A DNA stretch of 64,000 bases, from positions 2,418,001-2,482,000 of the forward strand of contig NZ_CP120468.1 in assembly GCF_029490015.1 (NCBI RefSeq), in the 5' to 3' direction. Below, one piece after another: positions 7,660-13,552 of this stretch (positions within the stretch are counted from its first letter, which is position 1; each line of letters opens with the position of its first letter). Source of the DNA: Halobaculum limi. Lineage in GTDB: Archaea > Halobacteriota > Halobacteria > Halobacteriales > Haloferacaceae. The notes beneath the pieces are model-generated. The model had not been told where the DNA came from and ran no database searches. It saw only the letters and a list, made by a program, of their open reading frames with translations. Both the position numbers and the translations under genes were made by a program.

Positions 7660-7820
7660 CGGTCCGTCTCGTCGCCGGTGGTGTCGTCCGTCGCGTCGTC
7701 GCGACCGCGCTCCCACACCGCGTTCGGGTCGGCCGCGCCCTCGGGCGCTTCGTGGTCGATGTCCGCGATGGTGTCGGCGTCGTCCTCGTGGTCGGCAGCC
7801 GTCTCCGCTGTGTCAGTCAT
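7656..7820 (-). CDS. small acidic protein inside the ilv-leu operon, unknown
   Basis: 54 residues beginning [16 protein letters not shown]. The ATG overlaps the ilvC 3' end by 8 bases, and the stop overlaps the leuC start as ATGA, so the frame exactly bridges two biosynthetic genes. It is very rich in Asp, Glu, Ala and Thr, with one central hydrophobic patch ([22 protein letters not shown]). No motif is recognised. The precise overlaps at both ends argue that it is translated, either as a small protein or only to couple translation of leuC to ilvC. Confidence 0.6.
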
Positions 7821-8874
7821 CCGCTCGTACCTCGGCTTTCTCGTCGTCTTCGGACTCCGAGGCTGGCGCTTCGCCGCCCCACGCGAACAGCGAGCGGAGG
7901 TCTTCGCCCACGTTCTCGATGTCGTGGTTCTTCTCGGCCTCGCGCAGTTGCGTGTAGGAGGGCCGTCCGGCCTGGTTCTCCGCGATCCACTCACGGGCGA
8001 AGGTGCCGTCCTGCACCGCTTCGAGGACTTCCTCCATATTCTCTCGGGCGTGTTCGTCGACGACTTCGTCGCCGCGGACGAGACCGCCGTACTCCGCGGT
8101 GTCGGAGACGGAGTCCCACATCTCGCCGAGTCCACCCTCGTACATGAGGTCGACGATGAGTTTCAGTTCGTTCAGGCACTCGAAGTACGCCATCTCTCGG
8201 CTGTACCCCGCGTCGACGAGTGTCTCGTACCCCTGCTTCACCAGCGAGGTGACGCCGCCACACAGCACCGCCTGTTCGCCGAACAGGTCCGTCTCCGTCT
8301 CCTCTTGGAAACTGGTCTCGATGACGCCCGCGCGGGTACAGCCGATGGCGTGAGCGTACGCGAGGCCCTCCTGGCGGGCCTCGCCCGTAGCGTCCTGATA
8401 CACTGCGAGCAGGCCGGGCGTCCCCTCACCGGCCTCGTAGTTGCGGCGCACGAGGTGGCCGGGCGATTTCGGCGCGACCATCGTCACGTCGATGCCCTCC
8501 TTCGGAACGATCTGGTTGTAGTGGATGTTGAAGCCGTGCGCGAACTGGAGGGTGTCGCCCGCCTCGAGACCGTCTTTGATCTCCTCGTAGACGGCTGGCT
8601 GGACCGTGTCGGGGACGAGGACGGAGACGATGTCTGCTTCCTCGGCGGCGTCGGCGGGCGTCTCCACGCGCAGGCCGTCGGCTTTGGCGGCCGTCCGCGA
8701 GGAGGAGTCCTCGCGCAGGCCAACGATGACGTCCACGCCGGAGTCGTTGAGGTTCTGCGCGTGGGCGTGGCCCTGGCTGCCGTAGCCGAGGACGGCCACG
8801 GTCTTGTCGTCGATCATCGAGCGGTCGGCGTCGTCGTCGTAGTGTACGTCGGTGTCGAAGGTGTCGTCAGTCAT
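7813..8874 (-). CDS. ilvC: ketol-acid reductoisomerase (NADP+)
   Basis: 353 residues. IlvC converts acetolactate or acetohydroxybutyrate into the dihydroxy acid by alkyl migration and NADPH reduction. The Rossmann motif is [20 protein letters not shown] (about residues 28-47). Catalytic acidic and Lys/His residues fall in [25 protein letters not shown] and in [13 protein letters not shown], and the C-terminal knotted domain contains [20 protein letters not shown]. The size is that of the short class I enzyme plus acidic tails at both ends. It lies 17 bases after ilvN. Confidence 0.97.
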
Positions 8875-8891: not shown

Positions 8892-9626
8892 TCAGTCGTC
8901 GTAGTTGGTGAACTCGTCGTCCTCGGTCGATGCCGCCGAGTCGCCTGGTTCCTCGCCGGGCGTCGTCGGGGAGTCGCCGCGTTCCAGCGCCGTCTGACCC
9001 GTCCGGGCGATCTCGATGATGCCGAACTGCTCGAACGCGTCGATGGCGTCGTCGATCTTCGATTCGCCGCCGGTGATCTGCACCGTGATGGTGCGCGGAC
9101 CGGCGTCGAGCGTCTGTCCCTCGTACATCTCGGTGATGGCGTGGACCTTCGCCGGGTCGGTGCCGCGAACCTTCAGCAACACCAGTTCGGCGGCCACGGC
9201 GTCGTCGCTCAACTCGCCGACCGCGATGACGGGCGTGAGTTTCGCGAGTTGCTTCTTCGCCTGGTCGATGCCCGCCTCCGTCTCCTCGACGACCAGCGTG
9301 ATCCGCGAGTGGCCCTCGATGGTCGTCGGACCGACGGTCAGGCTCTCGATGTTGAACTGGCGACGGCGGAACAGTCCCGCCGCCCGCGCCAGCACGCCGG
9401 GTTCGTCCTCGACGAGCGCCGAGACGGTCGTCCGGCGCGTCGGTTCGGGACCGTGATCCGGCTCTTTTCGGACGCCGTGTTCGTCACGGCGACCAGTCGG
9501 GTGCGGGCGCTCTTCGGGGCGCGGTCCCGACAGTCCCGTCTCTAGACCTTCCGAACTCGCCGGGCGGGCGCGTTCGGCCGCCGGGTGGTCGGCCGGGTGG
9601 TCGGGAGACTCGTCGCTCCCGCTCAT
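8892..9626 (-). CDS. ilvN: acetolactate synthase regulatory (small) subunit
   Basis: 244 residues from ATG 9626, whose ATGA overlaps the ilvB stop. The ACT domain begins at about residue 66 ([21 protein letters not shown], then [12 protein letters not shown]) and mediates valine feedback in this family; a second regulatory half follows ([22 protein letters not shown]). The first 65 residues and last 35 residues are hydrophilic, Pro- and Asp-rich extensions not found in bacterial IlvH/IlvN, a common haloarchaeal feature. Confidence 0.93.
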
Positions 9627-11425
9627 AGTTGATCCTCCGCGAGGGCGAACTGGCCGTTCGCCGCGCCACTCGCGACCATCGGGTAGACGTTCGCGTTCGG
9701 GTCGACGTGCGCGTCGACGACCGACGGGCCGTCGTAGTCGAGCGCCGCCTCGACCACGTCTTCGACCTCGTCGTAGTCGTCGATGCGGAAGCCCTTCGCG
9801 CCGAACGCCTCCGCGAGCGTGTCGAACTCGGGCATCCAGTCGTACTCGGAGGCCGTGTGCCGCCCCTCGAAGAAGGCGTCCTGCCACTGGCGGACCATCC
9901 CGATGTACTCGTTGTTGAGGACGACGACGGTGATGTCGAGGTTCTCGCGGACGGCGACCGACAGTTCCTGAATCGTCATCAGGAACGATCCGTCGCCCTC
10001 GAAACTGACCACCTCGCGGTCGTCGTCTGCGGCTATCCGTGCGCCAATGGCGGCGGGCAGGCCGTACCCCATCGTCCCCAGGCCGTGCGAGGAGACGAAC
10101 GTTCGTGGCTCGCGGAACGTCCAGTACTGCGCGGCCCACATCTGGTGTTGGCCGACGCCGGTGGTGACGTACGCGTCGTCGCCGGTCGCGGCGTCGAACG
10201 CCTCGACGACGAACTCCGGTCGAACTGGCTCGTCGGGGTCGATGGTGTAGTCCATCGGGTACTCCGCGCGCCACTCGTCACACTGGGCACACCACTCGCT
10301 CGTGTCGGGCGCGTCGGCGCTGCGAATCTCGGCGTCGATCTGTTCGAGGACGGTCTCCGCGTCGCCGACGACCGGGTAGTCCGCGTGGATGTTCTTGGAT
10401 ATCTCCGCGGGGTCGATGTCGACGTGGACGACCTCTGCCTCGGGGGCGAAGGTGTCGACGCCGCCGGTGAGGCGGTCGTCGAAGCGCGTCCCCACGGCGA
10501 TCAGACAGTCGGTGTGGGTGATCGCCATATTCGCGTAGCCCGTGCCGTGCATCCCCGCCCACGACAGACACAGGTCGTCGTCTTCGGGGAAACTGCCGAT
10601 GCCAGGCATCGTCGTCACGACCGGGATGTCGTACGCGCGAGCGAACGCGCGGGCCTCCTCGGTCGCGTCGCCTTTGATGACGCCGCCGCCGAACAGACAC
10701 AGGGGCCGGTCGGCGCTCTCGATGGTGCGCGCGGCGGCCTCGACCTGGTCGTCGTCGGCTTCGGGAGTCGGGACGGACCGTTTAGGCGGCGTCGGTTCGC
10801 CGACCGGTCGCTCCGTCTCGCCGAAGGAGACGTCTTTCGGCAGGTCGACGAGCGTCGGCCCCGGTCGTCCGGTCCCAGCGAGGGCGAACGCTTCGCCGAC
10901 GGTGCGACCGATGTCGTCGGAGTCGCTCGCGAAGTAGTTGTGCTTCGTGATGGGTGCGGTGACGCCGACGGTGTCCGTCTCCTGGAAGGCGTCGGAGCCG
11001 ACCATGTCGGAGGGGACCTGCCCCGTCAGCGCCAACATCGCGTCGGAGTCCATCGAGGCGTCGGCGATGCCGGTGACGAGGTTCGTCGCGCCCGGCCCCG
11101 AGGTAGCGAGACAGACGCCGGGGTCGCCCCGGACGATGCCGTAGGCGTCGGCGGCGTGGACTGCGCCCTGTTCGTGGGCCATCGTGACGTGGTGTATCGA
11201 CGACCCCCCAAGGGCGTCGTAGACGGGCATAATCGCCCCACCCTGCACGCCGAAGGCGGTCTCCACGCCCGCCGCTTCGAGGGCGGCGACGACCGCGTCC
11301 GCGCCCGTGCCGGGGATACGGCTCGCGGCCTCCGCGCGTCGATCGGCGTCACTGCTGTCGGTTCGCCCCGCGTCGTCCGTCTCGTCCGCGTCCGTCGCGG
11401 TGTCGGGGGTTGCTGGCTCGCTCAT
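9623..11425 (-). CDS. ilvB: acetolactate synthase catalytic (large) subunit
   Basis: 600 residues. IlvB condenses pyruvate with pyruvate or 2-oxobutyrate using thiamine diphosphate, the shared first step to Val, Leu and Ile. After an acidic leader of about 38 residues come the PYR domain with catalytic Glu85 (MAHEQGAVHAADAYG), the central FAD-associated domain, and the PP domain with the thiamine diphosphate motif running from EGDGSFLMT to VVVLNNEYIGMVRQWQ. It is preceded by a leader ORF with a hairpin and a TATA box, so the ilvBNC-leuCDB unit probably has its own promoter and regulation. Confidence 0.96.
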   Translation of the reverse strand: MSEPATPDTATDADETDDAGRTDSSDADRRAEAASRIPGTGADAVVAALEAAGVETAFGVQGGAIMPVYDALGGSSIHHVTMAHEQGAVHAADAYGIVRGDPGVCLATSGPGATNLVTGIADASMDSDAMLALTGQVPSDMVGSDAFQETDTVGVTAPITKHNYFASDSDDIGRTVGEAFALAGTGRPGPTLVDLPKDVSFGETERPVGEPTPPKRSVPTPEADDDQVEAAARTIESADRPLCLFGGGVIKGDATEEARAFARAYDIPVVTTMPGIGSFPEDDDLCLSWAGMHGTGYANMAITHTDCLIAVGTRFDDRLTGGVDTFAPEAEVVHVDIDPAEISKNIHADYPVVGDAETVLEQIDAEIRSADAPDTSEWCAQCDEWRAEYPMDYTIDPDEPVRPEFVVEAFDAATGDDAYVTTGVGQHQMWAAQYWTFREPRTFVSSHGLGTMGYGLPAAIGARIAADDDREVVSFEGDGSFLMTIQELSVAVRENLDITVVVLNNEYIGMVRQWQDAFFEGRHTASEYDWMPEFDTLAEAFGAKGFRIDDYDEVEDVVEAALDYDGPSVVDAHVDPNANVYPMVASGAANGQFALAEDQL

Positions 11426-11524
11426 CGTCGTCGGCCTCCTGCCGTGTGTGTCATACGTTCGCAGTCGTTGGTCGGGTGTCGCTAGTCGTCGGAAGTCGGT
11501 GCACGGGTCGGTTGGGGGAGTGAT

Positions 11525-11546
11525 GTGGGGGCGGTTACGCCCCTAC
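11525..11546 (-). promoter_or_regulatory. hairpin enclosing the leader stop codon, candidate attenuator
   Basis: On the minus strand GTAGGGGCG is followed by loop TAAC and then CGCCCCCAC, giving 8 pairs of 9. The loop holds the TAA stop of the 31-codon leader, so a ribosome terminating there would sit in the hairpin. There is no U-run directly after it. Function is inferred from position. Confidence 0.5.
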
Positions 11547-11630
11547 GATACCCACGACCCCGGCGAGAAGGGCGACGACACGGTCGCTGGTCGCCGAGCG
11601 GACGGCGTCCATCGTGACTCGCGTCGTCAT
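11535..11630 (-). CDS. ilvB leader peptide, Val/Leu/Ile-rich (candidate)
   Basis: 31 residues from ATG 11630, beginning MTTRVTMDAVRSATSDR and ending VVALLAGVVGIVGA. Eight of the last 14 codons specify the end products of the operon: five Val, two Leu, one Ile; they include CTT and GTA, which look uncommon in neighbouring genes. A TATA box 26 bases before this ATG predicts a leaderless transcript starting at it. The TAA lies in a hairpin loop, and ilvB starts 109 bases downstream. This is the layout of a translation-sensing leader. A longer frame (ATG 11726) would place the TATA box inside the coding region. It could instead be a small conserved protein. Confidence 0.55.
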   Translation of the reverse strand: MTTRVTMDAVRSATSDRVVALLAGVVGIVGA

Positions 11631-11656
11631 CTCGCTGATGCGTATCGGGTCGACGG

Positions 11657-11662
11657 CTATAA
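11657..11662 (-). promoter_or_regulatory. TATA box of the ilvB leader/ilvBNC-leuCDB transcript
   Basis: The minus strand reads GGTTATAGCC, with TTATAG ending 26 bases before ATG 11630. That spacing fits transcription starting at or just before the ATG. It lies in the gap after the leuA stop, which implies that ilvB can be transcribed separately from leuA. Confidence 0.6.
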
Positions 11663-11735
11663 CCCTGGCGTGGGTGGCAACGATTGCACCCCGCCGTAGC
11701 CCGTCGCCGGTCGTGTTCGCGGACATCTGCGCCGA

Positions 11736-12984
11736 TTAGAGTTTGGCCTCTCGTTGTGGCGGTTCGTCCTCGTGGTCGTCGTCCATTCGGGCGACGCCCT
11801 CCTCCTGGGCGAATCGCTTCACGTCGGACATCGTCACGCGACCCTCCGCACCCGCGTCCTTCACCCGCCGGGTGACGGTGCGAACCTGCGACTCGGTGGG
11901 GTCGAACCCCGCGTCGGTGAGGCGCTGGCGGACGGAGTGGGTGCCGGTGTGTTTGCCCATAACTAACTCGCGGGTCGCACCGACCATCTCCGGCGTCATC
12001 ACGCCGGGTTCGAACGTGTCACTGTTCTCAATGACACCGGCGGCGTGGATGCCGGACTCGTGGCTGAAGGCGTTGCGCCCGACCACGGGCTTGTTCGGCG
12101 GCACCGCGATGTCGCTGGCCTGCTCGACCATCCGCGAGACCTCGGTGATCCGCGTCGTGTCGATGCCGGTGTCGGCGTTGTACAGCGACTCGGCGGCCAT
12201 CACGACCTCCTCTAAGGCGGCGTTGCCCGCGCGTTCGCCGATGCCGTTGACCGACACCTGCATCTGGTGTGCGCCCGCCTCGATACCGGCCAGCGCGTTG
12301 GCCCCGGCCAGCCCGAAGTCGTCGTGCGTGTGCACGTCGATTCGGGCGTCGGTGTGGGCCGCGACGACTTCGATGAGGTCGCCGAAGCGGCGCGGCGTCG
12401 CGACGCCGCAGGTGTCGGGGATGTTGATCCAGTCGACACCGACCTCGCTGACGGCCTCGATGACCTCGACGAGGAACGACTCCTGCGTTCGGGTGGCGTC
12501 CATCGGCGAGAACATAACCTCCGCGCCGGACTCTTTGGCCATCTCCACCGCCTCGACGGCACGCTGTTTCACTTCCTCGCGGGTGGCGTGCATCGAGTCT
12601 TCGATCTGGACGTCGCTGGTCGACACGAACGTGTGGATCATCCCGACGCCGCTGTCGATGGCGGCCTGGATGTCTTTCTCGACCACGCGGGCGAGGCCGC
12701 AGACGGTCGTGTCGGTCGACTCCGCGATGTCTTTGACGGCCTCGAACTCCGCGTCGGAGTTGACCGGGAAGCCCGCCTCGATGACGGACACGCCCAACTC
12801 GTCGAGGGCCGCGGCTATCTCTCGTTTCTCCTCGTAGCTGAACGACGTACGTGGCGACTGCTCTCCGTCACGCAGCGTCGTGTCGAATATTCGGACAGAA
12901 TCGAACTCGTCAGTTGCACTCAGTGTGCCCTGGAAGAACTCGTTCCGCCGGACTGGTTACCGACGAGTCCTGGTGATGGGACAT
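11736..12984 (-). CDS. leuA: 2-isopropylmalate synthase/LeuA-CimA family, apparent 5' frameshift
   Basis: The body is a DRE-TIM synthase: VRIFDTTLRDGEQSPRTSF (metal and general base, from 12896), GVSVIEAGFPVNSD, IDVHTHDDFGLAGANALAGIEAG with the metal His pair, VSVNGIGERAGNAALEEVVM, and NAFSHESGIHAAG. The frame is open upstream only to a TAA at 12959-12957, and no ATG, GTG or TTG lies between that stop and the catalytic motif; the first is a TTG at 12797, after it. A leaderless-looking ATG at 12984 is one base out of frame. Dropping one base near 12950 joins MSHHQDSSVTS to RRNEFFQGTL. The usual C-terminal leucine-feedback domain is absent, so the product may be LeuA or citramalate synthase. 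Confidence 0.82.
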
Positions 12985-13008
12985 CAACAGGTGCGAGGAC
13001 GGAACTGA

Positions 13009-13015
13009 TTGTAAA
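13009..13015 (-). promoter_or_regulatory. TATA box upstream of leuA
   Basis: The minus strand reads CGCTTTACAATC; TTTACAA ends 24 bases before the ATG at 12984. This places the transcription start at or near that ATG and supports 12984 as the intended start of leuA despite the frame problem. Confidence 0.5.
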
Positions 13016-13261
13016 GCGTTGTGGTCGGACAGGTCGTGATCCGTGTGCCCATTTATCACGAACGTCAGATCAGTTCCAAAATCGCACGACAGCGACGGGT
13101 AGGTATGGGCTCGAAGAATCATTACGACCTTATACACATTGTATTGACGAACGGTCGCTCCGTGGCGATGGGTGGGGGAACGACAGCCCACCTGGCGGAC
13201 GTCTGACGCCCGCCCGACGCCCGTCCGAACGCTTTTGAGAGGACGTCCCGTGCCCCGGAGT

Positions 13262-13552
13262 ATGAGTGACTTCGGGCTCGACCTCCGCGACGCCGAGGAG
13301 ATGATGGAGTCGGAGGGAACGGTGGGGGACGTCGTCTTGGGGGTCTTAGACGGAGAGACGGAGCCCGAACACTGGATCCGAAACATCGAATACGGGAACG
13401 TCCTCGTGCTTGCCGTCGAGGGCGACATCAACGAACGCGCCAGCGGCTTCGCCCGCGAGGTGAAAGATATGGGCGGAGAACTCACGCACTTCCGCGGGTT
13501 CCTCATCGTCTCGCCGCCGAACGTCTCCGTCGACACCGACCTGCTCGGCTGA
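13262..13552 (+). CDS. haloarchaeal conserved protein (DUF5779-like)
   Basis: 96 residues from ATG 13262, starting MSDFGLDLRDAEEMM. The central part (VVLGVLDGETEPEHWIRNIE, then NVLVLAVEGDINERASGFAREVKDMGGELTHFRGFL split by short turns) alternates strands and helices and looks like a compact soluble alpha/beta fold. The pattern matches a small haloarchaeal family that I recall as DUF5779. No catalytic residues stand out. It is divergent from leuA across about 280 bases and convergent with the cupin gene. Confidence 0.75.
   Translation: MSDFGLDLRDAEEMMESEGTVGDVVLGVLDGETEPEHWIRNIEYGNVLVLAVEGDINERASGFAREVKDMGGELTHFRGFLIVSPPNVSVDTDLLG

Follow-up and report, generated by a model that had tools for sequence, protein, structure and literature searches.

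The 5′ part of the ilvB transcript of Halobaculum limi is probably a translation-dependent attenuator that senses the charging of Ile- and Val-tRNA. Ahead of ilvB, a short leader reading frame ends in an Ile codon and the rare Val codon GUA, and its stop codon is located in the loop of a GC hairpin. The device most likely acts by terminating transcription, although this is unproven. The window analysed here is a stretch of 64,000 nt, and its minus strand carries leuA, the leader, ilvB, ilvN and ilvC in that order. The features are as follows, in window positions.

11658..11662, minus strand: TATA box (TTATA) of the leader promoter, read from the sequence, ~27 nt 5′ of the leader ATG
11535..11630, minus strand: leader ORF of 31 sense codons plus TAA, read from the sequence; only the terminal Ile-Val-Gly-Ala-stop is kept class-wide
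11544..11549, minus strand: sensor codons AUC (Ile) and GUA (Val), from the comparison of 110 elements
11525..11546, minus strand: GC hairpin whose loop contains the leader stop, from the 110-element comparison, folding and compensatory changes
11505..11524, minus strand: post-hairpin tract, poor in G and rich in pyrimidines across relatives, though not rich in U here
11426..11534, minus strand: spacer from the leader stop to ilvB, weakly structured and without a promoter, with AGGAGG before ilvB here
9623..11425, minus strand: ilvB, acetolactate synthase large subunit, the putatively regulated gene (TIGR00118, 692.7 bits against a cut-off of 538; TPP enzyme domains)
8892..9623, minus strand: ilvN, acetolactate synthase small subunit (NF008864/TIGR00119, ACT_AHAS_ss); exact start not fixed
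7813..8874, minus strand: ilvC, ketol-acid reductoisomerase (TIGR00465), downstream of ilvB on the same strand

The leader frame opens with the ATG at 11630 on the minus strand, its sense codons run from 11630 to 11538, and it closes with the TAA at 11537-11535; the ilvB ATG at 11425 follows 109 nt past this stop. The encoded peptide is MTTRVTMDAVRSATSDRVVALLAGVVGIVGA, with the C-terminus Gly-Ile-Val-Gly-Ala. The hairpin at 11546-11525 reads GUAGGGGCG-UAAC-CGCCCCCAC and forms 8 of 9 pairs, with the stop inside the loop. RNAfold puts this hairpin at the centre of the predicted local fold, although the 236-nt leader taken as a whole shows no unusual stability (z −1.2). A first-pass annotation of this DNA had described the TATA box, the ATG, the 31-codon frame, the stop and the 109-nt gap to ilvB, had counted five Val, two Leu and one Ile among the last 14 sense codons of the leader, and had located the stop in the loop of the GC hairpin. 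On re-reading, these features were confirmed, the recount agreed, and the hairpin was evident both in the sequence and in the fold. Its description of the leader as Val/Leu/Ile-rich holds for this genome, but class-wide the richness of the tail is genus-specific and the sensor is narrower, consisting of Ile-Val with an invariant rare GUA. Downstream, only the last 180 residues of the ORF at 8892-10274 match the ilvN family, and the window ilvB is 85-86% identical to the ilvB of three Halobaculum species.

We compared 80 ilvB loci, 79 of them archaeal and one a distant match from Bacillaceae. In 76 of the 80, an open frame was found upstream, no more than 400 nt from the ilvB match, whose product has [IV]VG[AVG] at its end, followed by one further residue at most; one locus (L031) is without upstream sequence, and two (L063 and L065) have a compensated variant. 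A strict pattern, ATYGTAGGGGY-N(2-12)-CCCC, was then searched in 391 Halobacteria genomes, with the reversed pattern as a control. It is present in 373 genomes and in 79 of 86 genera, usually once per genome, while the reversed control is near zero. The position of ilvB was compared for 52 of the positives, and all 52 elements lie directly upstream of ilvB. With tighter spacing than in the class-wide search, the core motif is single-copy in its own genome and occurs only at the ilvB leader. Thus, the leader element is far beyond chance, as judged from its single copy here, its occurrence in nearly all of the genomes and the near-zero control. The first-pass annotation had staked its reading on conservation of the leader codons and hairpin across haloarchaea, and this is borne out.

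The 18 genomes negative for the strict pattern comprise 11 carriers of a variant, one without an ilvB match (G391), one with a truncated ilvB (G148, left out of the leader inspection) and five that show no leader before ilvB. Among the variant carriers, G176 and G309 have more diverged forms with the stop outside the hairpin loop; the others are G010, G091, G094, G159, G161, G171, G248, G288 and G367. No recognisable leader was found before ilvB in G160, G181, G307, G354 and G418 (L147, L152, L155, L157 and L159), and in the last four of these genomes ilvB sits close behind an upstream coding sequence. Among other archaea of the phylum, the DNA ahead of ilvB was inspected in 20 genomes of several families, and no comparable leader was seen. 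The leader ORF is 55-71% identical within the genus, and the part conserved class-wide is only AUY-GUA-GGG-G, the stop and CCCC.

A second copy of the leader and hairpin was seen at L160 (G246:C2) and L161 (G380:C1), with frames ending ..LIVGV* and ..ILIVGV*. These second copies precede a protein of 45-50 aa with the motif MADxxHTPPxEAPxANRVFERG, which has no Pfam match.

An A/T-rich box is located 25-36 nt 5′ of the leader ATG in 76 relatives. A box score of 6-7 out of 7 was obtained for 48 of 58 measurable leaders, versus 3 of 79 positions before the ilvB ATG. Since the box precedes the leader in nearly all species and is rare before ilvB, the leader promoter presumably also drives ilvB, which gives a predicted 5′UTR of roughly 200 nt. 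From the distance to the TATA box, we infer that the leader transcript is itself leaderless. The TATA box noted in the first-pass annotation has counterparts at a leaderless distance in relatives, where ilvB is without a promoter of its own. Beyond the hairpin, about 16 nt are almost G-free; G makes up 2-7% of the first 20 nt versus ~25% further on, and T rises to as much as 33% at 10-20 nt past the hairpin versus ~10% later. Runs of four or more T were found in 21 of 78 spacers, all but one of them within 36 nt of the hairpin. This tract resembles an archaeal termination zone by analogy, and the termination factor FttA prefers U-rich RNA (PMC11616081). The termination step remains uncertain because the U-tracts are weak in many species, this one included.

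How might the leader work? The codons, frame, stop-in-loop hairpin, tract and leader-only promoter can be observed by sequence comparison, and the scheme that we propose builds on them. The leaderless transcript would begin at the leader ATG, with the ribosome trailing the polymerase. Near the end of the leader, the ribosome would decode Ile (AUY) and the rare Val GUA, codons that form or border the 5′ arm of the hairpin. If Ile-tRNA and Val-tRNA(UAC) are charged, the ribosome would reach the stop and depart, and the hairpin would form; together with the G-poor, U-enriched tract, it would most likely bring about a premature end of transcription, of the U-tract/FttA type. If Ile or Val is scarce, a stalled ribosome would cover the 5′ arm and block the hairpin, and transcription would read on into ilvB, and probably ilvN and ilvC. 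Since stalled and terminating ribosomes both open the hairpin, the response would depend on timing. Leader translation, stalling at low tRNA charging, the direction of the response and termination are inferred, without 5′-end, 3′-end, ribosome-footprint or expression data for the locus. The first-pass reading of this region as a regulatory leader is supported by conservation, compensation and promoter placement, while the regulatory role itself is still an inference.

The main rival keeps the same sensor with another output: the leader ribosome would control ilvB translation or mRNA stability, without premature termination. This is possible, though we consider it doubtful. With little structure in the spacer and no obvious SD at many ilvB genes, ribosome traffic from the leader could matter, and the scarcity of T-runs means that a classical intrinsic terminator is not universal. 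However, relatives differ in how far GTA lies from the ilvB ATG (85 to about 300 nt), we saw no pairing to the start of ilvB that is conserved, and the U-enriched tract behind the hairpin is a better fit to termination.

Selection on the tRNA-sensing attenuator proposed here is seen at the level of codons. GUA is invariant in all 110 elements, while the same group's ilvB genes use it for 0.6% of their Val codons. The preceding position holds AUU in 70 elements, AUC in 34, a Val codon in 3, and a Leu, an Arg and a Phe codon in 1 each; it is thus Ile in 104 of 110 and Ile, Val or Leu in 108. AUU accounts for 64% of the codons at this position, versus 6.6% of the Ile codons in ilvB. These 110 elements come from related genomes, and the counts are not independent events. 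The A of GUA is unpaired in 44 of the 110 elements and yet is never altered; its retention even where unpaired shows that pairing alone does not explain the conservation of GUA. A ribosome-mediated attenuator is expected to have a short ORF with codons for the amino acids of the pathway, and this is satisfied by the Ile-Val of the 110 leaders. Translation of the leader is inferred from the conservation of its frame, its stop and its synonymous Ile codons and from the TATA box at leaderless distance, in the absence of ribosome profiling.

It might instead be supposed that the frame encodes a small protein under conservation, or a peptide that arrests the ribosome as it is made, whose C-terminal IVGA would sense a metabolite, as in TnaC, rather than tRNA charging. 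The conserved C-terminal Ile-Val-Gly-Ala/Val would be expected in that case, but the third positions of GUA and GGG are unvarying although synonymous codons are common, and in G367 Gly is replaced by Arg with the hairpin retained. Outside its last codons the body of the peptide is unconserved and shows no third-position bias, so the leader peptide is not a conserved protein and a functional peptide was rejected. We regard this explanation as quite unlikely. A longer protein from the in-frame ATG at 11726, whose conservation would have refuted the regulatory reading according to the first-pass annotation, is kept in only a minority of relatives and was also rejected.

The four-pair core of the hairpin, with the stop in the loop, is present in 110 of 110 elements, with loops of 5-13 nt, and at least 6 of 7 pairs form in 95 of them. 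The left arm is nearly invariant and the right half is much less conserved; because the left arm hardly varies, covariation is rare. The compensatory changes by which the first-pass annotation would have judged the hairpin were nevertheless found in two lineages. One is GUAGGGC/GCCCUAC (GGGC/GCCC) in the Actinarchaeum lineage (L063, L065 and L154). The other is CGGGC/GCCCG at L158 (G367), with the arms GUACGGGC/GCCCGCAC, where Ile, Val, the hairpin and the stop in its loop stay despite the Gly to Arg change. The element is more stable than dinucleotide shuffles (mean z −2.94, n = 55 sequences), whereas the 76 nt after it are no more structured than shuffles (z +0.19), and no second conserved hairpin was seen. 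Two mutually exclusive RNA structures, one of them a terminator, are also expected of an attenuator, and on this point the leader fails, having one conserved hairpin only. Without a mutually exclusive second hairpin, it is not a classical two-state attenuator.

The inverted repeat GTAGGGG..CCCCTAC could also be a DNA operator for a transcription factor, with the ORF incidental. The element is a palindrome, and its left half does not vary across more than 100 species. However, the half-sites stand 5-13 nt apart, a variation exceeding half a helix turn, conservation of the right half is far below that of the left, and there is usually one site per genome, hence no regulon. Furthermore, the Ile codons vary synonymously, the reading frame is never lost and the stop never leaves the loop, and the site follows the inferred start by roughly 50-130 nt. 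We rejected the operator, as fixed spacing and several sites per genome both fail, and we give it hardly any weight. A translation-independent riboswitch of the T-box type, binding tRNA or another ligand, is the least credible explanation, for although a conserved RNA element before an amino-acid biosynthesis gene might suggest one, the hairpin has only 6-8 bp, no Rfam covariance model matched positions 10500-13500 up to E = 1, and the conservation of frame and stop would be left unexplained.

The ilvB attenuator that we favour may not stand alone. We scanned the leaders of pheS and of a trpS paralogue (trpS2) in 29 genomes. Phe-rich leaders ending in GFGFFF or similar precede pheS at 17 of 29 loci, and Trp leaders (WRWR/WRWW) precede trpS2 at 8 of 9 loci (L322-L329, e.g. 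L322:1137-1214). At the pheS loci L294-L317 (e.g. L294:704-790), the leader ends in GFGFFF(A/T/G), hairpins lie close to its stop codon, and the motif GG(U/C)GGAC recurs behind. A dRNA-seq study of Haloferax volcanii lists uORFs of 26 codons for pheS and 23 codons for a Trp-tRNA ligase within long 5′UTRs (PMC4983044, Table 2), and from position and length we infer that the pheS and trpS2 leaders are these published uORFs. That table reports mapped short-ORF transcripts and gives neither an amino-acid match nor an attenuation model, and the ilvB leader is absent from its 16 uORF cases. A second ilvB in G297 (L162, G297:C4:123300-124300) has an Ile-rich leader, SIIAIIAIIGVS, and this leader, MQWSTIPGRSSVGSGASIIAIIAIIGVS, has its own GGGG..CCCC hairpin with the stop in the loop and no GUA. 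That separate leaders each carry the cognate amino acid is difficult to account for unless tRNA charging is being sensed. No conserved His- or Trp-rich leader was found before hisG and trpE, with a single chance hit, and candidate conserved k-mers upstream of these two genes were discarded as they appear to be coding sequence of the neighbouring genes.

The start of leuA is anomalous. In the window, leuA has no in-frame start before the catalytic LRDGEQ motif, and at 12984-12910 (minus strand), overlapping leuA, a leaderless out-of-frame ATG with a TATA-like box at 13015-13010 opens MSHHQDSSVTSPAERVLPGHTECN. The leaderless ATG in another frame is found in 28 of 28 genomes readable at LRDGEQ (including loci L185-L211), and in 27 of the 28 the out-of-frame ORF finishes, above the start of LeuA, in a peptide containing RVL[PR][GR]H. 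In many leuA genes, the LeuA frame offers neither ATG nor GTG nor TTG from the preceding stop up to LRDGEQ. This suggests a conserved +1 frameshift at CGA-GUU-CUU-C, near the CUU at 12936-12934, for which the putative junction is MSHHQDSSVTSPAERV/FFQGT. For Haloferax leuA2 (HVO_1510), the suggested solutions are a CTG start in frame or slippage that sets out from an out-of-frame ATG and may take place only at leucine shortage (PMC8305020), and ilvB is not mentioned in the main text of that paper. As far as sequences can tell, the class-wide leuA pattern supports slippage. This case concerns the adjacent Leu gene and differs from the ilvB leader in that the frameshift occurs within the coding sequence and there is no leader with a hairpin. 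Whether haloarchaea use a family of ribosome-read switches, with Ile/Val for ilvB, Phe for pheS, Trp for the trpS paralogue and, in leuA, +1 frameshifting where Leu is decoded, seems to us an evenly balanced question.

In bacteria, attenuation through the translating ribosome is textbook knowledge, and it requires coupled transcription and translation. A 2021 paper stated that nearly nothing is known about this coupling in archaea (PMC8576121), and exclusion of FttA by the ribosome has been proposed as a hypothesis (PMC11616081). A 2016 study of H. volcanii came to the conclusion that haloarchaea do not typically rely on structured leaders for control (PMC4983044). We found no archaeal ribosome-mediated attenuation and no archaeal ilvB leader in the literature, with many subscription papers and two Haloferax ribosome-profiling studies outside the coverage. 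An element that is usually single-copy, in at least 79 genera of a genetically tractable group, offers a direct assay for coupling and for ribosome-FttA exclusion.

Among bacteria, ribosome-mediated attenuation is known from the ilvBN, ilvGMEDA and leu leaders of enterobacteria and from the ilvB leader of Corynebacterium. The haloarchaeal leader shares with these branched-chain leaders a short ORF before ilvB, codons for the pathway products, rare codons beside a hairpin and a spacer without its own promoter. In E. coli, the Phe-rich leader pheM precedes the Phe-tRNA synthetase genes pheST; the likeness of the haloarchaeal GFGFFF leaders before pheS to it rests on anatomy only, and they belong to a different domain of life. 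The ilvB leader would work like bacterial ribosome-mediated attenuation, but we leave it outside that class because no pair of mutually exclusive structures was found. Unlike the bacterial ilv leaders, it is archaeal and leaderless, with one stop-in-loop hairpin where they have an antiterminator competing with a terminator. Its sensor codons number only one to three, the invariant GUA among them, and most species have no strong U-run.
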